From positions 62,001-126,000 of the forward strand of contig CACHGK010000003.1 of the NCBI GenBank assembly GCA_902579395.1: a stretch of 64,000 nucleotides of DNA. The letters are read 5' to 3'. The notes beneath the pieces were generated by a model, which saw only the letters and a list, made by a program, of their open reading frames with translations, had not been told where the DNA came from and searched no databases. Source of the stretch: an uncultured Alphaproteobacteria bacterium (GTDB lineage Bacteria > Pseudomonadota > Alphaproteobacteria > Methylaequorales > Methylaequoraceae). Shown piece by piece: positions 2,487-62,319 of the stretch (its first letter is position 1; each line of letters begins with the position of its first letter). The position numbers and the translations under genes are program-made.

Positions 2487-3774
2487 TTAGAACTCTCTTA
2501 AAAATAAAATCTACATTTTTTAAAAAATAATTTAAGTCAAACAAATTATTTATTTCCTCAAGGTTCAGCAAAGATCTAATATTCTTATCTTTTTTTAATA
2601 ATTCTTTAAAGTTTTTTTCAACTTTCCATGATTTAAGAGCTAAAGTTTGAACAATTTTGTATGCCTTTTCTCTTGAAATTCCTTTTTCAATCAATTTCAG
2701 CATTACTCTTTGAGAATTATATAAACCATTGGTTTTACGTAAATTTTTTTCCATCATTTTTTTGTTTACAACTAAATTTTTTATAATACTTTTCATTCTA
2801 TTCAACGCGAAATCGCAGAGTACTAAGCTATCAGGAGCAAGAGTCCTTTCAACTGATGAGTGAGAGATATCTCTCTCATGCCAGAGTGTTATATTTTCCA
2901 TGAATGGGATGCAGCTCGATCTGACAACTCTGGCAATTCCAGTAAGGTTTTCACTTAAAACTGGATTTTTTTTATGTGGCATTGCAGAAGAACCTTTCTG
3001 ATCTTTTGAGAAAAACTCCTCTACTTCGCCAACTTCACTTCTATGAAGATGCCTAATTTCAGTTGCTAAATTTTCTATAGATGAAGCGATTAATGCAAGT
3101 GTAGAAAATAAATAAGCATGTCTATCTCTTGGTATTATTTGTGTAGGAACATCTTCAACGCTTAAATTAAGTTTTTTAGCAACATATTTTTCTACATAAG
3201 GATTAATATTAGCGTATGTTCCAACAGCCCCAGAAATTGTGCAAATTGAAATTTGTTTTTCAGCGTTAATTAGTCTTTTGTAATGTCTTTCGAATTCACA
3301 AAATTTTGCAAGCATCTTTAAACCAAAAGTTGTAGGCTCAGCAAATATTCCATGACTTCTTCCAATGCATGGCAAATTTTTAAATTCTAGCGATTTTAAT
3401 TTCAGGTTATTTATTAAATCTTTAAGTTCTGTCTTAATGATTTTACATGACTGCTTAAGTTGTAATGAAAATGCTGTATCGATTATATCAGAAGAAGTAA
3501 CCCCTTTATGAATAAATCTTGAGTCCTCACCAACATTCTCTGCCACATTTGTTAAGAAAGCGATAACATCGTGTTTGACTTCTTTTTCAATTGCATCGAT
3601 TCTAGAGGAATCAAAACTCGCTTTTTTTTTTATATTTTTAAGGGACTGTTTAGAAATTTTTCCTTTTTGATGTAGAGCTTCACAAATTAAAATTTCTATT
3701 TTTAACCAGATTCTAAATTTATTATCTGATTCCCAAATTTCTGAAATTTCTTTACGCTTGTATCTTGGAATCAT
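2476..3774 (-). CDS. purB: Adenylosuccinate lyase PurB
   Basis: Fumarase/aspartase-superfamily lyase that removes fumarate from SAICAR and from adenylosuccinate, serving both the IMP and AMP branches. The superfamily signature [11 protein letters not shown] is at residues 261-271, the catalytic-His region RSHG is at 139-142, and [11 protein letters not shown] is near 90-100. At 432 residues it matches the short bacterial/archaeal type. It starts 5 bases after map ends and overlaps purC, forming map-purB-purC-purS-purQ-purL. Confidence 0.97.
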
Positions 3775-3779
3775 AATCT

Positions 3780-4559
3780 TTAATAGGGGGGGAAAGTATA
3801 GTTTTTTTTTGATAATGTGAATATTTCATAGCCATCATTTGTAACTCCAATAGTATGTTCAAATTGTGCTGAAAGTGATTTATCTGATGTTACAGCAGTC
3901 CATCCATCGGATAGTATTTTTACCTTGTAGTCACCAATATTTATCATTGGTTCGACTGTGAAAAACATTCCTTCTTCCAGTTTTTCGCCTTCTCCAGGAT
4001 TTCCGAAATGGAGAACACTAGGGTTGTCGTGGAATAACTGACCTAAACCGTGACCACAAAAATCACGAACAATAGAGTAATTTTTTTTTTCAGCGTAAAT
4101 TTGGATTGCATGTCCAATATCTCCAAGTGTGCTTCCCGGTTTAATGGTTTCAATACCTTTCATCATAGCCTCGTAAGTTGTTTCAACTAATTTTCTTGCT
4201 TTCAATTTGACCTCGCCAACATAAAACATTCTACTTGTATCTCCGTGCCACCCATTCAAAATAGGAGTGACATCAATATTTATAATATCTCCGTTTTGTA
4301 AAATTTTATCTCCAGGTATCCCATGACAAACAACGTGATTAACTGATGTACAAATAGACTTTGGAAAACCTTTATAGTTCAATGGAGCTGGAATTGCTCC
4401 TCTACTCGTTTGAAATTCATGACAAATATTATTTAATTCCAATGTTGATATGCCTGGTTTTATAAAATCAGATACATAATCCAGACATTCTGCTGCTAGC
4501 TGACCTGCTTCTCTCATAAATACGAATTCATCTTTTGTATGTAATTTGATATTATTCAT
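3780..4559 (-). CDS. map: Methionine aminopeptidase, type I
   Basis: Removes the initiator methionine from new proteins using a two-metal centre. Expected metal ligands are visible: Asp96 and Asp107 (NIDVTPILNGWHGDTSR), His170 (CGHGLG), Glu203 (TVEPM) and a Glu near 234 (QFEHT); His79 of VCHG is the substrate-binding His. 259 residues is usual for MetAP type Ia without an N-terminal zinc extension. It is first in the minus-strand pur operon; a 48-base divergent gap separates it from the CinA-type gene, so the operon promoter should lie there. Confidence 0.96.
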   Translation of the reverse strand: MNNIKLHTKDEFVFMREAGQLAAECLDYVSDFIKPGISTLELNNICHEFQTSRGAIPAPLNYKGFPKSICTSVNHVVCHGIPGDKILQNGDIINIDVTPILNGWHGDTSRMFYVGEVKLKARKLVETTYEAMMKGIETIKPGSTLGDIGHAIQIYAEKKNYSIVRDFCGHGLGQLFHDNPSVLHFGNPGEGEKLEEGMFFTVEPMINIGDYKVKILSDGWTAVTSDKSLSAQFEHTIGVTNDGYEIFTLSKKNYTFPPY

Positions 4560-4607: not shown

Positions 4608-5354
4608 ATGAAAAAAAAAAGAAAATCATCAGGAATCATTATTATCGGAAATGAAGTGTTATCCGGTAAAACCTTGGATACTAATTCAAACTTTATGTGT
4701 AAAGAACTCTTTAAAATAGGAATTTCTTGCGAAGAAATAAATTCTATTAAGGATGATGAAAAAACTATAATTGATAAAATAAATATATTTAAGTCTAAAT
4801 TCGATTATGTTTTTACATCTGGAGGTATTGGACCTACACATGATGACATAACTTCTCTAAGCATAGCAAAAGCATTAAATCAAAAATTAATTTTGAATAG
4901 TGAAGCAAAACTAAGAATTTCAAAACATTATTCTGATGATATTTTAACTGAAGCCAGATTAAAAATGGCTTTTATGCCAGAAAATGCTATTTTGATAGAT
5001 AACCCTGTGAGTGTGGCACCAGGCTTCTATGTTGAGAATATTTATGTTTTTCCTGGTGTTCCTGAGATTCTTCAGGTTATGTTCAAAGATTTTGTAATAT
5101 CTTTAGACGAAGGTTATAGATATTTCAAAAGGACAATTTCAACACATCTTTCAGAGGGTATTATTGGTGATTATATTGCAAGGACTCAAAAGAAATATGA
5201 AAATATTGAAATTGGAAGTTACCCATATTTCAAGAAGAATTCCTTTGGAGTTTCATTAGTTCTAAAAGGGGAGAATGAGATTGAGGTTAAAAATGTTTGT
5301 GATGAAATATTTGAATATATCAAAATTCAAAATGGAAATCCTCAGTTATTTTAG
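4608..5354 (+). CDS. CinA/MoaB-like molybdopterin-binding domain protein
   Basis: 248-residue protein of the MoCF (molybdopterin-binding) fold. The N-terminus reads SSGIIIIGNEVLSGKTLDTN, and FTSGGIGPTHDDITS is the family signature; a later VFPGVPEI motif is typical of the CinA N-terminal half. The CinA C-terminal deamidase domain is absent, as in the short stand-alone family members common in alphaproteobacteria. Its exact substrate is unknown; I would not call it a Mo-cofactor enzyme, since true MoaB/MogA are shorter. Its stop codon overlaps that of the convergent popZ-like gene by 4 bases. Confidence 0.85.
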   Translation: MKKKRKSSGIIIIGNEVLSGKTLDTNSNFMCKELFKIGISCEEINSIKDDEKTIIDKINIFKSKFDYVFTSGGIGPTHDDITSLSIAKALNQKLILNSEAKLRISKHYSDDILTEARLKMAFMPENAILIDNPVSVAPGFYVENIYVFPGVPEILQVMFKDFVISLDEGYRYFKRTISTHLSEGIIGDYIARTQKKYENIEIGSYPYFKKNSFGVSLVLKGENEIEVKNVCDEIFEYIKIQNGNPQLF

Positions 5355-5746
5355 TCTTTTGATTTTTTTATATAATCTGAAAATTCAAGTTCAATAATCC
5401 TTTTTAAATTATTGTTTATCCATTCATCCATTAACTTATTAAACTTTGTCTCAATACTTAAAATTTTTTTTACTTCATTATTTGAAGATTTAATTTTTTT
5501 TTTAAAGTTAATATTTTGCCAATTTGATAATACGTTTGACTTTTTATGACTTTTGTTTTCTTGGGCAGTTTGTAATATTTTGCTTTCAGTTTCATGAATA
5601 ATTTCTTTTTGTAAAATTTTTTTATCATTTAAATGATCGACATTTGTAAAGTCTTTTTTTACAAAATTTTCATATTCAACTTTAGCGTCGTTTATAAGAT
5701 TCAATATTGAATTTAGAAGTTCCTCAAATGATTTTTCTTTACTCAT
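5351..5746 (-). CDS. PopZ-like polar organising protein (DUF2497 family), divergent
   Basis: 131-residue acidic/lysine-rich protein. Two regions resemble the PopZ/DUF2497 family: an N-terminal helix (KSFEELLNSILNLINDA, cf. the family pattern EEILxSIRxII) and a C-terminal helix (MDEWINNNLKRIIELEF, cf. LKEWLDxNLPxIVE). The middle is low-complexity and polar, as in PopZ. I chose the ATG at 5746 because the 12 residues upstream do not resemble the family. PopZ forms a polar matrix that anchors ParB and the chromosome origin in Caulobacter; that role is inferred here. A second PopZ-like C-terminus is encoded at 6301-6504. Confidence 0.55.
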   Translation of the reverse strand: MSKEKSFEELLNSILNLINDAKVEYENFVKKDFTNVDHLNDKKILQKEIIHETESKILQTAQENKSHKKSNVLSNWQNINFKKKIKSSNNEVKKILSIETKFNKLMDEWINNNLKRIIELEFSDYIKKSKD

Positions 5747-5843
5747 TATGGCAAATTTATATTCAATATAATTAAGAATCAATTTTTTTTAAAAAATATA
5801 TAATTTTTTTGTAAAAGTTATTATTAATTCTTTTTATGTTAGT

Positions 5844-6314
5844 ATGGATGTTATGAATGGTATAATAATAGATTTTTTCCCCTTTGCTTTTATCCTCATA
5901 ATATTATTTTTTTTTCTAGCTATACCAAAAAAAAAAAATGTCAAAAAAAATTACGAAAGAATTGAAAATGATAAAACACAGATTATACCGTCAAATGAGA
6001 ATAGTAGAAAAATTCTTGAGAATGCTGAAATCAAGCTAATTGCATTAAAAGATTTGTATAAACAAAATTTAATCGATGCTAGTGTCTATGTAAGTAAAAC
6101 AGAAGTTATTTCCAGAAATTTAAGTAAAGAGTTTGGCAACGATATTATGGAAATTCCTAATCTTCAAAAAAACATTATTTTCAATGGTCTTAAAAAAGAA
6201 ATTAGAATGAAAATTAAGACTATCCCCTCAAAAAATGTTAAAAATAATATTGATAATCTCATTTCTGCTGTAGATAATAAAATAAAAGCTGGAGTTTTGA
6301 GTGAAGATAAATAA
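5844..6314 (+). CDS. Small single-pass membrane protein of unknown function
   Basis: 156 residues. One strong hydrophobic segment (about residues 6-27, IIIDFFPFAFILIILFFFLA) is followed at once by a lysine cluster (IPKKKNVKKN), indicating an inner-membrane anchor with a cytoplasmic tail. The tail includes LKDLYKQNLIDASVYVSK, which resembles a SHOCT-type short helical motif, and is otherwise polar and helical. It overlaps the downstream PopZ-like gene by 14 bases, so the two are probably co-translated; a link to cell-pole organisation is possible but unproven. I do not recognise a named family. Confidence 0.6.
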   Translation: MDVMNGIIIDFFPFAFILIILFFFLAIPKKKNVKKNYERIENDKTQIIPSNENSRKILENAEIKLIALKDLYKQNLIDASVYVSKTEVISRNLSKEFGNDIMEIPNLQKNIIFNGLKKEIRMKIKTIPSKNVKNNIDNLISAVDNKIKAGVLSEDK

Positions 6315-6504
6315 TTCAGAAATACTAAATAAAGTCAAAGAAAAAGTATCTGAAAAAAAAGAGAAACTGGGCAATATCAAGGATAGTAAGGTTCTTGATA
6401 GCAATGATAGTTTGGAGACTGAATTGAAGAAATGGATAAAAGAAAATGCAGAAAAAATTGCAAAAGATATTATTAAAGAAGAGGTAAAGAAAATTTTCAA
6501 ATAA
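6301..6504 (+). CDS. Short PopZ C-terminal-like (DUF2497) protein
   Basis: 67-residue, lysine- and glutamate-rich, very likely all helical. Its last 28 residues (LKKWIKENAEKIAKDIIKEEVKKIF) fit the PopZ/DUF2497 C-terminal oligomerisation motif well, better than the longer protein at 5351-5746 does. It has a GTG start 14 bases inside the end of the preceding membrane-protein gene. It lacks the N-terminal client-binding helix and the proline-rich linker of full PopZ, so it may act as an oligomerisation partner. The valS gene that often neighbours popZ is not here. Confidence 0.6.
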   Translation: MKINNSEILNKVKEKVSEKKEKLGNIKDSKVLDSNDSLETELKKWIKENAEKIAKDIIKEEVKKIFK

Positions 6505-6624: not shown

Positions 6625-6713
6625 GCGAGCGTGCTGAAATTGGTAAACAGACAGGACTTAAAATCCTGCGGGTGGTAACACCCTTGTGGGTTCAAGTCCC
6701 ACCGCTCGCACCA
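6625..6713 (+). tRNA. tRNA-Leu (anticodon UAA)
   Basis: Class II tRNA. The acceptor stem pairs GCGAGCG (6625-6631) with CGCTCGC (6703-6709), followed by discriminator A and an encoded CCA (6711-6713). The anticodon stem CAGGA/TCCTG (6652-6656/6664-6668) encloses loop CTTAAAA, giving anticodon TAA at 6659-6661. The long variable arm (CGGGTGGTAACACCC region) and the GGTTCAAGTCC T-loop are typical of tRNA-Leu. No integrase or attachment-site duplication is seen next to it. Confidence 0.96.
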
Positions 6714-6732: not shown

Positions 6733-7440
6733 ATGCAAAAAAAGATTTCAATCAAAATATTATTTTTTTTAACACTTATATTTTTCAGTAAATATTCCAT
6801 TTCAGATGATATCAACCAAAAAATTAAGGAATTTATTTTAAAAAATCCAGAAATTATTATTGAGTCCTTAAATAATCTTGAAAAACAAAAAGAAGATGAA
6901 AGAAGGATTGAGGATAAAAAAAAAGTTGAAGATTTACGTGAAGAAATATTTGAAACTGATAATCAAGTTTATGAGGGAGATTCGGATGGAAGTAAAGTTT
7001 TAGTTGAGTTTTTTGATTATAATTGCTCTTACTGTAAGAGAGTTCACGAAGATTTAAAAACCGTTCTTAAAAAATCTTCGGACATAAAAATTATTTATAA
7101 AAATTTTCCAATTTTGTCAGAAAACTCTGTAAATCTTGCTAAATATGCAATTATTATTTCTGAAATAGATCATAAAAAATTTGTTCAATTCCATAATTTT
7201 ATTATCTCTCATAAAGGTAGAGTTAATGATAAACATTTGGTTCAAATTTTTAATAAATTAAACATTATCAAGAGTGAGATCGATGCTAGATTAGAAGATA
7301 AAAAAGTAATTGATATGCTTGAGAAAGACATAAGTTTGGCTCAAAAGCTTGGGCTAAGGGGTACTCCAGCCTTTATTATTAAAGATGAGATTATATTCGG
7401 CTATATTAACTCTGAAGAAATATTATCAAAATTAAATTAA
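6733..7440 (+). CDS. DsbA-family periplasmic thiol oxidoreductase (Com1/ScsC-like)
   Basis: 235 residues. An N-terminal signal (IKILFFLTLIFFSKYSIS, cleavage near residue 23) exports it to the periplasm. A charged helical region (about 25-80) precedes the thioredoxin fold, as in Com1/BdbD/ScsC-type proteins where it can drive oligomerisation. The active site is C98-S-Y-C101 in DYNCSYCKR, with the cis-proline loop GTPAF near 216. It probably introduces or isomerises disulfides in exported proteins. It converges with the HExxH gene, sharing 4 bases at the stops. Confidence 0.88.
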   Translation: MQKKISIKILFFLTLIFFSKYSISDDINQKIKEFILKNPEIIIESLNNLEKQKEDERRIEDKKKVEDLREEIFETDNQVYEGDSDGSKVLVEFFDYNCSYCKRVHEDLKTVLKKSSDIKIIYKNFPILSENSVNLAKYAIIISEIDHKKFVQFHNFIISHKGRVNDKHLVQIFNKLNIIKSEIDARLEDKKVIDMLEKDISLAQKLGLRGTPAFIIKDEIIFGYINSEEILSKLN

Positions 7441-7883
7441 CAATATAGATTGTTTTTAGACTGCGATTTAAATTTTGCAGCAAAACCGTTGCTGTATAGG
7501 ATTTTTTTACCGTATTGACTAAGATATATATTGTGATTAACTAATGCATCCATTTCTCTGAGATGTTTTTTTGTCTTGGATTCATAATTTGTAAAAATAT
7601 TTTGATCATCTTGTAAAATATGAATCAACTCATGTAATAGAATACCTCTGTGACATATATCATCCATTGGTGAAAGTTGTTTTGATAGGTAAATAGTATA
7701 TTTAGGGTTATCAGGAGTTAATGCAAGAATTTCACAATCACGTTTACATGCAAGTTGTGAGAGTTCCTTTTGTTCGAGAAACTCTACTTCTGGAAATTTT
7801 TTTGGTTCTTTATATTCAGTATTAGTTGTTATCCAGAAAAGTAGTGCTACTATAAGCTCATTTAAAGTTTCAAATTTTTCCAT
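7437..7883 (-). CDS. HExxH-motif putative metalloprotein, unknown function
   Basis: 148 residues. The only recognisable feature is HELIH at residues 84-88, the zinc-metallopeptidase HExxH motif, with acidic candidates for a third ligand about 20 residues on (KHLREMD). Four cysteines are spread through the protein (ACKRDC, DICHRG and the last residue). There is no convincing signal peptide; the LIVALLFWI segment near the N-terminus is short. Small HExxH proteins of this size occur in alphaproteobacteria without an assigned function. Proteolytic activity is only a guess. Confidence 0.6.
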   Translation of the reverse strand: MEKFETLNELIVALLFWITTNTEYKEPKKFPEVEFLEQKELSQLACKRDCEILALTPDNPKYTIYLSKQLSPMDDICHRGILLHELIHILQDDQNIFTNYESKTKKHLREMDALVNHNIYLSQYGKKILYSNGFAAKFKSQSKNNLYC

Positions 7884-7905: not shown

Positions 7906-8847
7906 ATGATTAAAAAATTGTTTATTCATCGCTCTCTTCCAGAAATGTATCACATAGATGTAGGAGATAACAATAAAATTTATACAGAAGTAAGTGGAAA
8001 AAAAGATGGTATCCCAATTATTTTTGTTCACGGAGGTCCTGGAGGTCAATGCAGAAGTGAACACCATTCTCTTTTTGATCCTGAAATTTATAAATCCATA
8101 ATTTTCGATCAAAGAGGTTGCGGGAAAAGCACTCCATATAGATCTTTAAATGGAAATAATACTGAAAATTTAGTTAAAGATATTGAGAAAATTAGAGAAT
8201 TCTTCAAAATTAAAAAATTTATAATAGTTGGTGGATCTTGGGGGGCAACTTTGGCAATAAAATATGCAATAAAGCACCCTGAAAACCTTATAGGCGTTCT
8301 ATTAAGATCTGTTTTTTTGGGTACAATTGAAGAGATTAATTGGGCATTTATTGACGCACCAAAAATTTTTGCTCCAAATCTTTACGAAAAATTTAAACAC
8401 TATTCTAACAAAAAGGATATAATAGATTCGTACTACAAAGAAATTGTTGAAAAGAACTCAAAAATACATTCTTGGATATGGCATGATTATGAAAGGATGT
8501 TATCACAATTAAATCCAAAAAATTATTTTTTTGAAAAAGAGGAAATAATACTTGAAAGGGATGGTGTTCCCAACTCCCCTTTTATGGAATTATACTACAC
8601 AAAAAATAAATTTTTTATGGAAAAAAACGAAATACTTAAAAAAATTAAAAATATCTCAAACCTACCATCATACATTGTTCAAGGAAGATATGATTTAATT
8701 TGTCCGCCTATTAATGCATTTAACCTTCATGAAAGGTGGCCCTCATCAGAGTTAAAGTTTGTCAATACTGCTGGTCACTCATCATCAGATGAAGGTATAA
8801 TAGATAATTTACTGATTGGTTTAGAAAAGTTAAGTCAACATGTCTAA
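7906..8847 (+). CDS. pip: Proline iminopeptidase (alpha/beta hydrolase)
   Basis: Cytoplasmic exopeptidase that frees N-terminal proline from peptides. The oxyanion-hole motif HGGPGG is at residues 42-47, DQRGCGKS at 68-75 and the nucleophile elbow GGSWG at 109-113 (Ser111). The acid is in GRYDLICP near 262 and the histidine in TAGHSS near 293. All are specific to the S33 proline iminopeptidase family, and 313 residues is normal. Its 3' end overlaps queG by 18 bases in convergent orientation. Confidence 0.93.
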   Translation: MIKKLFIHRSLPEMYHIDVGDNNKIYTEVSGKKDGIPIIFVHGGPGGQCRSEHHSLFDPEIYKSIIFDQRGCGKSTPYRSLNGNNTENLVKDIEKIREFFKIKKFIIVGGSWGATLAIKYAIKHPENLIGVLLRSVFLGTIEEINWAFIDAPKIFAPNLYEKFKHYSNKKDIIDSYYKEIVEKNSKIHSWIWHDYERMLSQLNPKNYFFEKEEIILERDGVPNSPFMELYYTKNKFFMEKNEILKKIKNISNLPSYIVQGRYDLICPPINAFNLHERWPSSELKFVNTAGHSSSDEGIIDNLLIGLEKLSQHV

Positions 8848-9936
8848 CTCATAAAGTACATATTTATTTTTCTCATTTTTTAATTTAGTCCTTAGTAATC
8901 TTATTTCTTTGTCATTGAGGAGTTGGGACAGGGACCATATACAAGAACCTCTAATTATAGGGTTGCAATTATTTAAATGATAATAGATTGCTTTAATTAA
9001 ATTTTTATCTTTACTATTTCCTGATGCAATTATCACGTTTCGTAAAAATCTGATCCAACCAATTCTTCTAATAGGTGAATTTAAAAAATAACTTTTAAAT
9101 TTTGTTTCATTAAAGTTTAGAAAAAATAATAAATCTCTATTAAAATTATCATTAATAAATTTTTTTTCATTAGTTTCTTTAGAAAATTTATTCCATGGGC
9201 ACACAGATAGACAATCATCACAACCATAAACTTTATTTCCCATTTTTTTTCTTAAACTTTTTGGAATTGGACCTCTATATTCTATGGTTAAATAAGATAT
9301 ACACTTCCTTGCATCAATTATATTATCTTCCAATATTGCATCCGTGGGACAAATATCAATGCATTTGGTGCAAGTCCCACAATTATCTATTAAATTGTCC
9401 TCTTCTTTAATTTTTATAGGTAAAAAAATTTCAGCTAAAAACAACCAAGATCCAAATTCTTTAGAGACAATGTTTGTATGTTTACCTTGCCAGCCAATTT
9501 TTGCTTTCTGAGCAAAATATTTTTCCATTACTGGAGACGTGTCGACAAACACTTTTGAGGAGATATTGAACTCAGAGATTAACCAATCTTGAATGTTTAT
9601 CAACTTTTCTTTTATGATATCGTGGTAATCATAATTTTGAGCATAAACACTTATGTTTGCAGCGCTTTTTTCTGCATTAAATCTTAATGGATTTGTTCCT
9701 GGAGAATAATTCAGACCAACAACAATCACAGTTTCAACTTTATCCCATATTTTTTTTGGATTAACTTTTTTTTCAAAATGTCTTTCCAACCACTTCATTT
9801 CGCCATGGTAGTTTTTATTTAAAAAATTTTGATAATTTTTTTGAGTTTCTTTATCTACTTTTGAAGTTGCAAACCCAACAATATCAAAACCTTCAGTTAA
9901 TATTTTTTTTTTTAATTTTTTTTTAAGTTCTTCCAT
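8830..9936 (-). CDS. queG: Epoxyqueuosine reductase QueG
   Basis: Last step of queuosine synthesis: a cobalamin- and iron-sulfur-dependent enzyme that reduces epoxyqueuosine to queuosine in tRNA. Two [4Fe-4S] ferredoxin-like motifs are visible: CGTCTKCIDICPTDAI (about 186-201) and CDDCLSVCPWNKF. The N-terminal part carries the WLERHFEKKVNPKKIWDKV and VDTSPVMEKYFAQKAKIGW segments of the B12-binding domain. At 368 residues it includes the C-terminal HEAT-like tail. It is divergent from queC with a 33-base gap. Confidence 0.95.
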   Translation of the reverse strand: MEELKKKLKKKILTEGFDIVGFATSKVDKETQKNYQNFLNKNYHGEMKWLERHFEKKVNPKKIWDKVETVIVVGLNYSPGTNPLRFNAEKSAANISVYAQNYDYHDIIKEKLINIQDWLISEFNISSKVFVDTSPVMEKYFAQKAKIGWQGKHTNIVSKEFGSWLFLAEIFLPIKIKEEDNLIDNCGTCTKCIDICPTDAILEDNIIDARKCISYLTIEYRGPIPKSLRKKMGNKVYGCDDCLSVCPWNKFSKETNEKKFINDNFNRDLLFFLNFNETKFKSYFLNSPIRRIGWIRFLRNVIIASGNSKDKNLIKAIYYHLNNCNPIIRGSCIWSLSQLLNDKEIRLLRTKLKNEKNKYVLYELDMLT

Positions 9937-10659: not shown

Positions 10660-11284
10660 AATTAAAGAAATATTTAGATCAATTCAAGGTGAAGGATACA
10701 ATATTGGAAAAGAAACAGTTTTTGTGAGATTTTCAGGGTGTAATTTCTGGAATGGAAATATTAATGATAGAACAAATGCAATTTGTGATTTTTGTGATAC
10801 TGACTTTAAAGGTGTAGATGGGAAAAATGGTGGTGTATACAATTTAAAAGAACTAATAGAAAAAATTGGTATTGTTTGGGAATCCTCATTTACTCTTCAA
10901 AAAAAACTCGTTATTTTGACTGGTGGTGAGCCACTTCTTCAGGTCGATGAGAATTTAGTAAATAGTCTTAAAGAAAAAAAATTTTTAGTGGCAGTTGAAA
11001 CAAACGGATCGATAGAATCTAAGATTAAATTTGATTGGACTTGTGTTAGCCCAAAAGACCCTAAAAGATGGTTGCTTAGAAGAGGAGACGAACTTAAAAT
11101 AGTTTATCCTCAGAATAAATTTAATCTACATGAATTAATTTCCTTAGATTTTAAATATTTCTTTCTTCAGCCTAAATATAACCATCTAAAAAAATTAAAT
11201 GTTAATAAGACCATCGATTATTGTAAACTGAATAAACCTTGGTTTCCTAGTTTTCAACTTCATAAAACAATTGGAATTATGTGA
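10652..11284 (+). CDS. queE: 7-carboxy-7-deazaguanine synthase QueE
   Basis: Radical-SAM enzyme that contracts the ring of 6-carboxytetrahydropterin to CDG. The N-terminus has SIQGEGYNIGKETVFVRFSGC, and the cluster ligands follow the variant spacing C-x14-C-x2-C (first Cys in SGCNFW, last two in CDFC), a known QueE subtype rather than the usual CxxxCxxC. The SAM-binding GGEPLL motif follows. Its stop TGA overlaps the queD ATG by one base (TGATG), favouring re-initiation. Confidence 0.95.
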   Translation: MYKIKEIFRSIQGEGYNIGKETVFVRFSGCNFWNGNINDRTNAICDFCDTDFKGVDGKNGGVYNLKELIEKIGIVWESSFTLQKKLVILTGGEPLLQVDENLVNSLKEKKFLVAVETNGSIESKIKFDWTCVSPKDPKRWLLRRGDELKIVYPQNKFNLHELISLDFKYFFLQPKYNHLKKLNVNKTIDYCKLNKPWFPSFQLHKTIGIM

Positions 11285-11640
11285 TGCTTATTTTTAAAAA
11301 ATACTTTTTTGATGCAGCACATTACCTTTCAGATTTAGGTGACAATCAAAATTATAAAAAAATGCATGGTCATAGTTATGAAGTAACTATAACACTGTCA
11401 GGTGAAGTGAATCAGGATAAGAATTGGGTTATGGATTTGGAGAGGTTAGATAAATTGACTAAGCCGGTAATCTCATTACTTGATCATTCTACTTTAAATG
11501 ATGTAGTTGGTTTGGAAAAGCCAACAAGCGAGAATATAGCAAAATGGCTTTGGTTAAATTTAAAGAAAAAAGTTCCAAACCTTGTAAGAGTTGAAGTTAA
11601 TAGACCAAGAATTGGAGGATGTATTTACAGTGGTGAATAA
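11284..11640 (+). CDS. queD: 6-carboxytetrahydropterin synthase QueD (PTPS family), catalytic Cys replaced
   Basis: Converts dihydroneopterin triphosphate to 6-carboxytetrahydropterin. Zinc ligands His13 (DAAH) and His28/His30 (HGH), plus the DHSTLND and PTSENIA motifs, identify the family. The cysteine expected in the CxxxHGH motif is Tyr24 here (YKKMHGH); the only cysteine is near the C-terminus (GGCIYSGE). I chose ATG 11284, which overlaps the queE stop, over GTG at 11281. Operon position still argues for a role in queuosine synthesis. The stop abuts the convergent queF end. Confidence 0.9.
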   Translation: MLIFKKYFFDAAHYLSDLGDNQNYKKMHGHSYEVTITLSGEVNQDKNWVMDLERLDKLTKPVISLLDHSTLNDVVGLEKPTSENIAKWLWLNLKKKVPNLVRVEVNRPRIGGCIYSGE

Positions 11641-57228: not shown

Positions 57229-60200
57229 ATGCCAAGTTTATTTGACATAGGAAAAAGTGGGCTTCAAGCTTACAGACAATCATTAGCAGTTACAGGTCAA
57301 AATATCGCGAATGTTAATACAGATGGTTACAAAAAAAGGGATGTGGCATTAGAGGAAGTTACTGGTGCTGGTGGAGGTGTTACAGAAATATCTGATCAAA
57401 CAGGATTAGGTGTAAGAGTTGAACAAATTAGAAGAGCATTTGACGAATTTTTGATAGATAAAGCAAGGCAAGCAACCTCTAATTTTAAAAAAGCAAATAC
57501 TTTTTCAGACGAAGTTAAGGATTTAGAAAATATACTGTTGCCTACGGATAATAATTTAAGTTCTGCAATTGGCGATTTTTTTAATTCTCTTCAAGATATT
57601 GCAGCATATCCAGATGAGCAGGCCTCTAGAATTGTTGCAATTGAAAAGGGAAAAGATTTGGCTGCTCAATTTAATCTTTATTCTGAGAGAATTTCAAATT
57701 TAAAAAACCAAATTAATAATAAAACAAAAAACGCAGTAACATCTGTTAATCTACTTTCAGATCAAATTTCTAATATAAATGCAAAAATTTTAGCCTCTGG
57801 GGTTGCAACGGGTGGATCGAATGCATTGTTAGATCAAAGAGATATGTTGCTAGATCAAATGTCTGAAGTCACTCAAGTGACAGTAAATTACGGTGATAAA
57901 GGTCAGGCTGAAGTAAGATTAGGGAACTCTGGTTCTGGTCCTATAATAGTGTCATCAGATGCTGAACCAACAAAAGGCAATGATACTACAACTCAAATAG
58001 ATGTTGTTAATCAAGGTAGTAGACTTCAACCAGTTGTTGGAGTTAATAAAATTGCAACAAATCAAATAAGGGGAGGATTAATAAGTGGAATGGTTGATGC
58101 ATTTGCATTAGCAGACGATACAATGAAAGAAATTGATAATCTGGCTACAATAATTTCTCAGAAGTTTAATGAAATTAATCAGTCAGGATTAGACCTCGAT
58201 GGAAAAGAAGGTAAACAAATGTTTACTGTATCAAGCCTCCAGGCAGTTGAAAATCCTACTAATAGGTCGAGTGTGGGTGTTGCGGTTTTCGTAACCAACC
58301 CTTTAGAAATAAAGAATTCAGAATACAGAGTTATTTATCATGAAAATGAAGAATTGTGGAAACTTACATCTGACGACATTAAAACTCCAATTACAGGTAA
58401 ACAAACAATTGACGGACAGGGTTTTAAGATTTCTTTTTTTGGAGAACCATTGGATGGAGACGAATTTTCTATAGTTCCAAGTAGTGCCTCTAAGGGTATG
58501 GCTTTCTTACTTGAAAGACCACAGGATTTTGCTGCAGGTTCAAAAACACTTATAAGTGCTAGTACTTCAAATACTGGAGCAGCAAGACTTGAGGAAATTT
58601 CACAACTTAAATTTGAGGATAAGACAACCATAAATGATGTTAGAAATGTTTTTTCAAATGGACTTAGTCCAGTTACATCTTCAAATTTTGCAAGTGATGG
58701 TGGGGCTGCAATTATTAAATCAGGTACTTCTTTTGTAAATTTAAGTTCATATAAGGCACAACCAGAATTACAATTTGGATTATCTGCATCCGATCTTACT
58801 TCATTAACTTCAATTAAAATAACAATGTCTGATGCGTCTTCTGTAACAGTTGACATAACTGGTGTAAAAACTCTTGAGGAGCTAGCAGATGTTTTAAATA
58901 GGAGTAGAGATGTTTCTGGAAATGCTCATAGCTTTAGAACAATGGGATTATTTGCATCTGGCGGAGGTGCATCTCTTACAATTGCAAGTAACAACAAAGA
59001 ATTCTCTTCAGGAGCAATTTCTGCATCATCCACTATTAATGCAAATGTAGTAAATCCGTCAGTAACCACGGCTAGTAAATTACAGATTTTTACGAGAGAA
59101 GGAAGGCACATAGCAGGAGAAGTTTTATCGGATGCTGAAATAGCAGAATTCATGACAGAAGAAAATGGATTTAATAAATTTGCTGAATACAGAGCGGATT
59201 ATTTGAATGGAACTGAAAAAGAGAAGTATAGAAATATTGAAGTAACTAGATCAACAGCTGAAGGAAACTATATTATAAGCTATGGATCAAATGGTACAGC
59301 TGCAAGTGCTCAAAGACACGCAACAGATGTGCCGGCTAGTCATGTCACAGCTGCATACACACTTACAGTAAATTCAACAACAACTGGCAAATCAAAAAAT
59401 ATTTCCGTACCAATAGAATCCTCTGCAGGTTTTGTGGCTGGTTTAATAAATTCTGAGGCAAGAACACTAGGAATTGAGGCAACAGCTTCGACAAAAGTTA
59501 AACTCTCAGCGCCAGCGTCAAATGGAACTATCTCTTTTAATCTTCGAAGCAAACAAGGTGTTGGAAATGATGCATCTATAAGTGCAACAATCTTATCAAC
59601 AGATCTTACGAATTTGGCTAATTCTATAAATAATTTTTCTGGTAGGACAGGTGTAATTGCAAATCTTTCATCTGATAAAAAACATATTGTAATGGTAAAT
59701 TCGGAGGGGGATGACATACAAATTTCTGCTTTCTCAACTCCAAACACCGTGGAAATGGAGGTTCTAAATAGTGATTATGGATCTTTTAGTTCTGCTATAA
59801 CAGTCAACCTTGATAATACAAATTTTAAGGCAGCAAGATTTAGTGGAGAACTCAAGCTCACGTCATCTTCTGCATTTAGTACATCTAATAATGGAGGAGG
59901 AACAACAGTTACTGGCTTGCAAAATGCACTCAGCGACGGCTTTTTAAATGTAACGTCTTCGAGCACAGGAGAAGTAAAAACAATAAAACCGGTAGTGCTA
60001 GAGGGAGATTTTTCAACTGGTCATCCTGAGGGATTGAGTGCATCTAGTTCGATTCTTTCTTATGGATTAAAGATACCAGCTGATGGAAATGGTGGTTTGT
60101 TTTCAACTACTGTTGATGTATCTAAACTTGATGTATTGAATAAAGCTCAAATTTCAAAAAAAATTGCTGAGGGGCTTAGAGCAGATAGTCCTTCCAGTGA

Positions 60201-62319
60201 AATAATTGGAACAGCTGTTACATCAATCCCAGAGGATGGAAAAAGCTTTAGAATTAATCATGATGGACTTACTTATACATTAACTATGGAAAATGGTGAG
60301 GTTGTGGTTTCTGGTGGTGAAAAAGATTTAATTACGGCGTATTTTGAAAATCCAGATCCAATTACAATCAATACTACTGCACTTGGTGGAACTAATACAA
60401 TTACCTCTACTGAGCATAATTTAGAGACTGGGGATGCTATAAAATATAATGCTGCAGAGAAAGTAATTGTTGACACAACTAATTTTGCATCAACTTCAAC
60501 AATTTCAATTCCAAATGATTTTACCAACAATGATCCCGTTGTTTATAATGCTGGTGGTAGTCTTCCAATTTCAGGGCTTGTGGACGGAACAACTTATTTT
60601 GTTAAAAATAGATCTGCAGATAGTTTCCAATTATCAGCAACATCAGGGGGGGCAACTTTAACTATAGCTGGAGGAACTGGCGGCAGTGTGTCAGATTCTT
60701 TTTCAAGCCCAAGAGATGGTTTAGTTGACGGACAAACTTACTTTGTTGTAAAGGTTGATGATCACAATTTTAAACTTGCTAGCAACTATACGTTGGCTAC
60801 AAATTCAACTCCTTCGGTTATAACTATTGGATCAAGTGGAGTTGGAGGAAATGCTGCCGATACTTTTGATCCAGCAAAAAATCTTTATATTTCGTCTGGC
60901 AGAACAATATCAGGATCTCAATTCTCTTTTCCTGTAGATTCAACAAATGATGATAATGCCAAATTATTTGGCATGCAAAGTTCTCAAATTGAAACTACGA
61001 TTACTGGTAAGTCAATAGCCACACCAGCGGCAAGTAACACATCACATTTTCACATTAAAATTAAAGATAATTCAAATCCTATTGGAATATTTGTAAAAGC
61101 TAACTCTAAAACAATAAACACATCTGGTGTTGGTGGATCCTCAACAACTTTAACCTCTACTGGTCATGGTTTTAAAACTGGTGATAAGATTACCTACACA
61201 GCTGGAGGCACCGCACTAAATGGTTTGACAAATGGCGCATCATATTTCGCTAAAGTGGTTGATGCCAATACTTTTAGTTTGGCCTCCAGTTTCGATAATG
61301 CAACATCTGAGATTACATCTTTACTTACATTTGGTGGAGGAAATGGACATGCAAGCGACAAATTTGCTACTGTTTTTGCAACAGCTTTATTAAATGATAA
61401 TGCTTCAACACCTGCGTCGGCAGTTGGAATCACTGCTGAAATAAATCAGATTAGTGATACAAATGCCCAAATCAGTATTATTAAAGAAGCTGATAAAAAA
61501 CAAATTATTGTCGACAGAATTACGGCTGGTGATGGAGCAACTGCAGAAAGCTTTGGTTTCAAAACAAGCCAAATTAATTTAAATGTTTTAAATGATGAAA
61601 TAAGATTACAATCTTTCACATCTGATGTTTCAGGTTCACATGCGATTGATTTAGAGGTTCCCACAAACAGTGTCAAATCACTGGTTGGTAATAATTTATC
61701 TTTATCTAACTTACCTTCAGAGGATTTAATTGTTTTAATGACTGGAAACGGATCAAAAAAAATTGCAGCAAACTATGGAGAAACTAATTCAGTATTGAAA
61801 GATGAAGAGTTAAAAATTTTAGTTGATTCCTCAAATAATAAGAAGGTAGAGATATTAGATAATGAAACGGGTCATACGATTGCAACACGTTTAATACCTG
61901 ATGACGGAATAATAAATACTTCAGACAAATCATTCAGAATAGTTGGTGAAACAAAAGTTAATGATTTCTTTACAGTTTTAAACAACAATGATGGAATCGG
62001 TGACAATAGAAATATTTTAAAGATGATTGAACTGCAGACATCGGATGTTAATGGAAAAAACTCAGGAAGTTTTCAAGATATATTTAATAAAACTGCAACG
62101 GAAATAGGTGCAACAGTTAGAAGTAGTGAAATGGAAGCACAAGACGCAGAAGCAAGTAGAGATGAAGCATTAGCATTAGAAGATGAAAGATCAGGAGTAT
62201 CTTTAGATGAAGAAGCATCATCATTGATTCAATTTCAACAAGCTTTTTCAGCTAATGCGAGAATAATTCAAACAGCAAGAGAACTTTTTGATTCACTTAT
62301 GAGAGTGGTTTCAAGGTAG
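57229..62319 (+). CDS. flgK: Hook-filament junction protein FlgK (HAP1), giant variant
   Basis: Links the hook to the filament. The N-terminus (LFDIGKSGLQAYRQSLAVTG, QNIANVNTDGY) and C-terminus (GVSLDEEASSLIQFQQAFSA, ARIIQTARELF) are textbook FlgK, and the middle-N region (GGSNALLDQRDMLLDQMSEV) is conserved too. The total is 1,696 residues against roughly 450-700 normally: about residues 380-1560 form a Ser/Thr/Gly-rich, beta-type insert. It includes a flagellin-IN-like motif (about 790-830) and FCCH-like modules (about 1045-1385). The insert should be surface-exposed. Reading frame is intact throughout. Confidence 0.95.
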   Translation: MPSLFDIGKSGLQAYRQSLAVTGQNIANVNTDGYKKRDVALEEVTGAGGGVTEISDQTGLGVRVEQIRRAFDEFLIDKARQATSNFKKANTFSDEVKDLENILLPTDNNLSSAIGDFFNSLQDIAAYPDEQASRIVAIEKGKDLAAQFNLYSERISNLKNQINNKTKNAVTSVNLLSDQISNINAKILASGVATGGSNALLDQRDMLLDQMSEVTQVTVNYGDKGQAEVRLGNSGSGPIIVSSDAEPTKGNDTTTQIDVVNQGSRLQPVVGVNKIATNQIRGGLISGMVDAFALADDTMKEIDNLATIISQKFNEINQSGLDLDGKEGKQMFTVSSLQAVENPTNRSSVGVAVFVTNPLEIKNSEYRVIYHENEELWKLTSDDIKTPITGKQTIDGQGFKISFFGEPLDGDEFSIVPSSASKGMAFLLERPQDFAAGSKTLISASTSNTGAARLEEISQLKFEDKTTINDVRNVFSNGLSPVTSSNFASDGGAAIIKSGTSFVNLSSYKAQPELQFGLSASDLTSLTSIKITMSDASSVTVDITGVKTLEELADVLNRSRDVSGNAHSFRTMGLFASGGGASLTIASNNKEFSSGAISASSTINANVVNPSVTTASKLQIFTREGRHIAGEVLSDAEIAEFMTEENGFNKFAEYRADYLNGTEKEKYRNIEVTRSTAEGNYIISYGSNGTAASAQRHATDVPASHVTAAYTLTVNSTTTGKSKNISVPIESSAGFVAGLINSEARTLGIEATASTKVKLSAPASNGTISFNLRSKQGVGNDASISATILSTDLTNLANSINNFSGRTGVIANLSSDKKHIVMVNSEGDDIQISAFSTPNTVEMEVLNSDYGSFSSAITVNLDNTNFKAARFSGELKLTSSSAFSTSNNGGGTTVTGLQNALSDGFLNVTSSSTGEVKTIKPVVLEGDFSTGHPEGLSASSSILSYGLKIPADGNGGLFSTTVDVSKLDVLNKAQISKKIAEGLRADSPSSEIIGTAVTSIPEDGKSFRINHDGLTYTLTMENGEVVVSGGEKDLITAYFENPDPITINTTALGGTNTITSTEHNLETGDAIKYNAAEKVIVDTTNFASTSTISIPNDFTNNDPVVYNAGGSLPISGLVDGTTYFVKNRSADSFQLSATSGGATLTIAGGTGGSVSDSFSSPRDGLVDGQTYFVVKVDDHNFKLASNYTLATNSTPSVITIGSSGVGGNAADTFDPAKNLYISSGRTISGSQFSFPVDSTNDDNAKLFGMQSSQIETTITGKSIATPAASNTSHFHIKIKDNSNPIGIFVKANSKTINTSGVGGSSTTLTSTGHGFKTGDKITYTAGGTALNGLTNGASYFAKVVDANTFSLASSFDNATSEITSLLTFGGGNGHASDKFATVFATALLNDNASTPASAVGITAEINQISDTNAQISIIKEADKKQIIVDRITAGDGATAESFGFKTSQINLNVLNDEIRLQSFTSDVSGSHAIDLEVPTNSVKSLVGNNLSLSNLPSEDLIVLMTGNGSKKIAANYGETNSVLKDEELKILVDSSNNKKVEILDNETGHTIATRLIPDDGIINTSDKSFRIVGETKVNDFFTVLNNNDGIGDNRNILKMIELQTSDVNGKNSGSFQDIFNKTATEIGATVRSSEMEAQDAEASRDEALALEDERSGVSLDEEASSLIQFQQAFSANARIIQTARELFDSLMRVVSR
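60364..61377 (+). repeat. Repeated beta modules in FlgK (phage-tail/adhesin FCCH-like)
   Basis: Protein-level repeats: H-x-L/F-x-T-G-D-x-I-x-Y...GLxxGxxYFxxxVDxxxFxLA. Copy A starts at 60364 (HNLETGDAIKYNA), is interrupted, and continues at 60718 (GLVDGQTYFVVKVDDHNFKLA). Copy B (60463-60717) lies between those halves with VVYNAGG and GLVDGTTYFVKNRSADSFQL. Copy C is at about 61108-61377 (GHGFKTGDKITY, GLTNGASYFAKVVDANTFSLA). This module type is typical of phage tail and adhesin-like proteins. Confidence 0.7.

Follow-up and report, generated by a model that had tools for sequence, protein, structure and literature searches.

The single polar scaffold protein PopZ appears to have been replaced, in the bacterial family studied here, by two short PopZ relatives (A and C) and a small membrane protein (B), which are encoded together beside a cinA-like gene and may form a conserved polar scaffold module. 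This reading is held tentatively, at almost an even balance of confidence. It has been derived from one stretch of DNA of 64,000 nucleotides, the whole of which is called the window in the following, and from genomes of the window's family, presumably a marine one with small genomes and perhaps placed near AEGEAN-169/HIMB59, and of other families.

Organization of the locus

An earlier preliminary description of this DNA had put a small membrane protein between two PopZ-like ones, and this has been confirmed, all three open reading frames being present at the coordinates of Table 1. The start of A is a conserved ATG at 5746, the TTG at 5782 being only the start of the longest frame. The genes of B and C share 14 bases in the window, and over 18 loci their junction, with start codons chosen by us, ranges between an overlap of 14 bases and a gap of 17. 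The divergent interval between A and B was found to be 46-127 bases long in the 22 loci measured, and a scan of 2 kb around it gave 14 promoter-like matches against a shuffle mean of 13.8, which is no excess. The window is AT-rich, with a GC content of 0.30.

Two further proteins of the window were observed in passing. A 148-aa protein with an HELIH motif (7437-7883, minus strand) adjoins a dsbA-like gene in several loci of the family and has weak, sub-cut-off Pfam matches to DUF6647/SprT-like families, and a 1696-aa reading frame (57229-62319, plus strand) resembles by eye a FlgK-like flagellar hook-associated protein with a very long middle part.

Table 1. Features of the locus and of a second family of hairpin proteins (positions in the window unless a genome or locus is named)
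Feature	Position	Strand	Description
Gene A	5351..5746	-	131 aa, divergent PopZ by sequence; N-motif KSFEELLNSILNLINDA, linker with W-x-x-I-x-F (WQNINF), C-terminal helix with MDEWINNNLKRIIELE
Gene B	5844..6314	+	156 aa; a single hydrophobic helix at the N-terminus, then a stretch rich in lysine and a predicted pair of helical hairpins; core LIALKDLYKQNLIDASVYVSKTE
Gene C	6301..6504	+	67 aa, GTG start; minimal PopZ by sequence: N-stretch SEILNKVKEKVSEKK, short linker, C-helix KKWIKENAEKIAKDIIKEEVKKIF
A-B divergent interval	5747..5843		97 bases between the starts of A and B
cinA-like neighbour	4608..5354	+	MoCF_biosynth and FLAD1_M; convergent with A, overlap of 4 bases; conserved flank
tRNA-Leu (taa anticodon)	6625..6713	+	neighbour on the C side
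Second hairpin-TM family	G000:C1:89008-89268 (L050 1477-1854), also L047, L049, L051

Homology of A and C to PopZ

Judged by sequence comparison, A and C are divergent homologues of PopZ. In profile-profile comparison with a canonical reference set of 20 PopZs, C was found to match over the C-terminal helix with E 6.1e-6 (probability 85) and A over the same helix with E 2.3e-4 (probability 45), each as a single comparison and both probabilities being moderate. The canonical-PopZ score was reached by 0/200 column shuffles for A and 0/200 for C, whereas 28/200 reached it for the negative control B. The N-terminal stretches have also aligned in register, EKSFEELLNSILNLINDA of A on canonical EPTMEEILSSIRRIISED (E 5.1e-7) and SEILNKVKEKVSEKK of C on canonical EEILSSIRRIISEDD (E 2.7e-4), with 0/300 shuffles reaching either score as against 15/300 for the negative control B. 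When the N-stretches of C and A were compared directly with each other, 40/300 shuffles reached the score, which is not significant. The N-terminal client-binding helix motif of PopZ is present in the profiles of both proteins and weak in single members of C, the C-terminal helix of the PopZ oligomerization region is present in both by profile, and the stretch common to A, C and canonical PopZ is shorter than 50 residues.

Within the window, the 113 reading frames of at least 60 aa were ranked for both motifs. A came first and C second for the N-motif; for the C-motif C came first and A third, an unrelated frame (11281-11640) outranking A. Among 10000 residue shuffles, 2 reached the N-motif score of A and 45 its C-motif score, the corresponding counts for C being 282 and 0. 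The strong C-terminal PopZ motif earlier noticed in the 67-aa C is borne out by its first rank and by the absence of any shuffle reaching its score, and A does carry the PopZ-like motifs described for both its ends, N-motif, linker and C-helix all being present. The idea of a 'divided' scaffold, on the other hand, was not supported, as A has all three parts and the profile of C can be aligned in register with the two motifs of PopZ. A and C look like the products of duplication with shortening rather than of a split of PopZ. The N-motif of C scores above zero in 11/19 members, 10 of these in the window's genus, and below zero in 8/19; by these scores it is weak outside that genus.

The strongest test of the homology was the genomic placement of the profile matches. 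The class search covered 385 genomes, 5 from the window's family and 380 outside it. Outside the family the A profile matched in 7/380 genomes, in all cases adjoining tolC- and/or valS-like genes, and the C profile also in 7/380, six matches adjoining a tolC-like gene and one (in genome G356) lying in a pilus-like cluster; these neighbours were recognized by eye from translations, and one genome (G182) was matched by both profiles. Since A and C lie below the Pfam cut-off and each profile matches only 7/380 outside genomes, the relation to PopZ must be regarded as remote; a DUF2497 gene is commoner than these matches, being present in 21/28 outside genomes sampled. A separate observation concerns genome G106, whose normal tolC-valS site is occupied by a PopZ-like gene (locus L147, 1501-1971) with an A-like N-terminus, DSLKDIIDSIKVMVAEAQ, a possible intermediate form.

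In the DUF2497 search that had been proposed as a check, window C matches weakly and below the cut-off (16.8 of 27 bits) and A does not match, both missing the gathering cut-off of PF10691 (DUF2497). The best Pfam family for window C was DUF7570 (18 bits, below its own cut-off), with DUF2497 second. At E <=1, DUF2497 was listed for 13/19 C proteins of the family (best 2.1e-4), being the family named most often for C, and for 3/19 A proteins (best 0.079), DAP_DH_C being listed for 4 of the A proteins. In NCBIfam none of A, B and C had a match over the cut-off. Against solved structures, the canonical PopZ profile retrieved PopZ 6xry (chain residues 1-130 aligned), and the C and B profiles gave nothing below E 0.1.

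The tolC-valS site

In other families popZ was seen at its customary site between tolC and valS, and PMC6414705 reports the same site for Caulobacter and Magnetospirillum. The valS loci were fetched for 30/32 genomes of the window's family, of which one lacks the valS start and 29 are readable. In 29/29 of these loci the upstream reading frame ends from 4 bases inside to 5 bases before the valS ATG. Six of these upstream frames were read and look tolC-like by eye, and the others agree with them in length and in how they end. As the two frames abut in every readable locus, there is no room for popZ between them.

A full-length PopZ elsewhere in the genome, together with the lack of any DUF2497 match, had been named beforehand as the finding that would speak against the preliminary description. 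DUF2497 was found over its cut-off in 0/32 genomes of the family, the same search having succeeded in 21/28 genomes of other families, and the sole DUF2497 match within the family (in G021, E 5.7e-4) is C itself. Yet the C profile finds a relative in 23 of these genomes. Apart from A and C, no other PopZ was found in it. Nor was a canonical PopZ found elsewhere in the window's own genome, which is 80% complete; it gave no match over the cut-off, and the usual slot is empty, so that the adverse finding named beforehand did not occur.

Linker and predicted structure

In PMC9512792 PopZ is described as a single conserved scaffold with a client-binding helix at the N-terminus, a disordered region that is acidic, and an oligomerization domain made of helices, the last two being needed for its condensates. 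The AlphaFold2 model of A has helices at 7-34 and 89-130, a pLDDT below 50 at 36-74 and a mean of 68, which suggests a linker of low predicted order. The net charge per residue of this linker has a median of +0.026 (range -0.11 to +0.164, 22 proteins), as against a median of -0.204 (range -0.372 to -0.035) in the 20 canonical PopZs and -0.097 (range -0.31 to -0.056) in 11 small-genome PopZs, which were drawn from 13 tolC/valS-side matches of the class search with a locus GC of 0.33-0.46. Because these AT-rich small-genome PopZs stay negative, though the ranges touch, AT-richness alone does not explain the non-acidic linker of A. An assembly built with such a linker may behave differently from that of PopZ.

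The linker also carries a motif, W-x-x-[ILVKFH]-x-[FY], present in 17/19 A proteins and in 0/20 canonical and 0/11 small-genome PopZs, the pattern having been derived from A. The oligomerization domain of PopZ has three helices, one of them an extra helix before the W-helix; our pattern for this extra helix matched 0/19 A proteins, but it also matched only 7/20 canonical and 2/11 small-genome PopZs. With 131 aa (A) and 67 aa (C), both proteins are shorter than the 20 canonical PopZs (median 218.5, range 165-321), and C has hardly more than the C-helix and a short N-stretch.

Membrane protein B and its relatives

The AlphaFold2 model of B (mean pLDDT 65) has a helix at 4-26 and hairpins at 52-73/79-97 and 106-125/132-148. 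One N-terminal transmembrane helix is predicted, followed by lysines. By the positive-inside rule, a lysine-rich flank after a transmembrane helix faces the cytoplasm, and so the rest of B is placed there. As a PopZ relative B was rejected by profile, its score being reached by 28/200 shuffles, and as YajC, SHOCT or ZitP it was rejected for want of a Pfam match over the cut-off; no Pfam family matched B above its cut-off. B has a possible likeness to a SHOCT domain; SHOCT is absent from the Pfam families found at E <=1 for 19 B proteins and for the B-like proteins of family f18.

Outside the window's family the B profile matched in 2/380 genomes, G356 (E 2.4e-5) and G179 (E 3.6e-4), both of family f18 and both at weak E-values. 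These proteins have an N-terminal transmembrane helix and the same 35-residue hairpin core as B (E 4.3e-7), and near each is encoded a DUF2497 protein that passes the Pfam cut-off, at 0.7 kb in G356 (29.6 bits) and at 4.4 kb in G179 (29.1 bits). The C profile led independently to the DUF2497 gene of G356, and that of G179 was found only by inspecting the surroundings of the B match. The two DUF2497 genes (locus L183 of G179, 3638-4030; locus L184 of G356, 8648-9058) lie among pilus-like genes; in the cluster of G179 Pfam identifies a T2SSE-type ATPase and a prepilin peptidase, its pilin-like genes and the cluster of G356 being recognized by eye. The f18 DUF2497 protein is possibly a pilus-dedicated PopZ. 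This link between PopZ-type and B-type proteins is no more than suggestive, the two f18 genes being non-adjacent and on opposite strands; if it is real, its recurrence near pilus-like genes in f18 would make the partnership older than the window's family.

The B profile also found a second, conserved family of single-TM proteins of ~125 aa with a B-like hairpin, IRELYVGGYISKGVYISETDRLYEKAKIFG (Table 1), beside which no PopZ-like gene was noticed. As the hairpin core occurs in proteins with no such neighbour, it is not specific to PopZ-type partners.

Conservation of the module

The cinA-like neighbour was found in 27/32 genomes of the family and is complete or nearly so in 24 of them; it is incomplete in G010 and G024, and in G025 there is a weak match to another gene. 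In 22/24 genomes with a complete cinA-like gene, and in 11/12 genera, A is kept divergent from B and C in the order seen in the window. The exceptions are G019, whose contig ends inside A, and G005, which has an inversion. The joint of the latter is a short shared stretch, and the first part of A remains at the contig end. At locus L142 of G005 (2807-3019 and the contig end; L059 is from the same record), C was observed to be fused by its first part to the last part of A. The record, AH-287-P08, is titled a MAG, but its name is in what we take to be the style of single-cell genomes, so that the junction is likely an amplification chimera, though scaffold halves may really have been exchanged. 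Two copies of the module are present on different contigs of G028, and G020 has an A that breaks off within the C-helix and a C with a changed end. The cinA-like gene of locus L170 (G010) was seen to pass mid-gene into a QueD/QueE-like region, probably by an assembly or amplification chimera.

A, B and C are under purifying selection in the close relatives tested. The pooled dN/dS over 10 non-independent pairs from five close relatives was 0.24 for A, 0.14 for B and 0.26 for C, the counts including the B-C overlap.

Proposed mechanism and alternative explanations

In the proposed mechanism, A would be the client-binding member, with a good N-helix motif, a disordered linker and an oligomerizing C-helix. 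C would be a minimal PopZ, mostly oligomerizing helix, made together with B, and B a single-pass membrane protein whose cytoplasmic helical part holds C at the membrane. This tethering of C through B is inferred from the gene overlap, the conservation and the f18 genomes. A and C may co-assemble via their related C-terminal helices, and the membrane-held layer of B and C could nucleate or anchor a layer of A at the pole, to which ParA/ParB-type clients would bind. The steps which we infer for the module are its descent by relocation and duplication, a contact of B with C, co-assembly, polar position and ParB as a client. ParB was found in 25/32 genomes of the family and a ParA/MipZ-type ATPase in 26/32, lying ~0.6 kb from ParB in the window's genome. 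As the MipZ model matches in 14/14 control genomes as well, it shows only a ParA-type protein.

A more detailed form of this proposal has a two-part, membrane-anchored scaffold, in which B and the mini-PopZ C form one layer and A the client layer, joined by a shared helix; the acidic linker would have been lost, a W-x-x-I-x-F docking motif gained, and the partnership of B with PopZ would be older than the family. Taken with all these particulars, the proposal is rather doubtful.

An alternative would leave A alone as the working PopZ and make C a small regulator, which would pair with the C-helix of A and so cap or dissolve the assemblies of A, with B setting where or when C acts. C has little beyond one C-helix, its N-motif is weak and its linker short, and a truncated helix partner could conceivably act as a chain stopper; B and C overlap and A is divergent from them. 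But window C scores nearer to the canonical PopZ C-helix than A does (14.9 vs -1.9 bits), and we consider a regulatory C unlikely, less so than the further alternatives below.

The module might also organize another polar machine, a flagellum or type IV pilus, instead of the chromosome origin. The DUF2497 and B-like proteins of the two f18 genomes stand among pilus-like genes, and flagellar genes, read from translations, are present at 54-64 kb of the window. However, the neighbours in the family are cinA-like, map, purB, tRNA-Leu and dsbA-like genes, none for a pilus or flagellum having been noticed in those flanks that were read, and ParB is found in the genomes counted above; we regard a role in such a machine as quite improbable.

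The idea that A and C are lysine-rich helical proteins without relation to PopZ, resembling it through composition, is largely contradicted and very improbable. The low GC of the window, the short motifs, the sub-cut-off Pfam scores and the 282/10000 shuffles reaching the N-motif score of C would agree with it, but the profile scores were reached by 0/200 and 0/300 column shuffles, and 13/14 out-of-family profile matches adjoin tolC and/or valS. Lastly, A and C might be what is left, in decay, of a PopZ that was lost. Their shortness and divergence and the altered copies of G020 could speak for this, but it is contradicted for the genus tested by the dN/dS of A and C in its close relatives and also opposed by the order kept in 22/24 genomes, and this explanation is hardly credible.

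If a PopZ-based module is indeed retained here, a lineage with an empty popZ slot which has yet kept ParB, and which has two minimal versions and a candidate membrane partner, would reveal the dispensable parts of PopZ, namely the acidic linker, the length and the usual locus. C would offer a natural mini-scaffold of 67 residues for testing. Moreover, these results show that a plain DUF2497 search can miss PopZ relatives, having found none over the cut-off in 32 genomes.

Comparison with known systems

In searches of the PopZ and DUF2497 literature, as far as the partly accessible texts go, no published report of such a relocated and duplicated PopZ arrangement was found. A and C share with PopZ (PF10691, of Caulobacter and others) an N-helix motif of the EEILxSIRxxIxED type and a C-terminal helix with a conserved W, and A also has a middle part of low predicted order. 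On the other hand, the window's family has two copies in place of one, both below the cut-off, away from tolC-valS and shorter; in the module, moreover, a PopZ-type gene is paired with a membrane protein gene, and the linker of A is non-acidic and carries the W-x-x-I-x-F-type motif.

The ZitP-PopZ pair offers a second comparison. PMC5182065 describes ZitP as acting on PopZ localization and as having a zinc finger at its N-terminus together with a transmembrane domain and DUF3426. B is likewise a membrane protein, but in 19 B proteins no Pfam match to a ZitP-type zinc finger or to DUF3426 was obtained at E <=1, and the gene of B overlaps that of C.

The third comparison is with the f18 pair, which resembles the window's module in that its DUF2497 gene, within the stretch read, is not at tolC-valS and in having a partner with an N-terminal transmembrane helix and the hairpin core. 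Whereas the module has two PopZ relatives, each of the two 18-kb stretches examined in f18 has one DUF2497 copy; its gene and that of the membrane protein are on opposite strands, non-adjacent and in a pilus-like context, and the f18 membrane protein has a long linker which distinguishes it from B.
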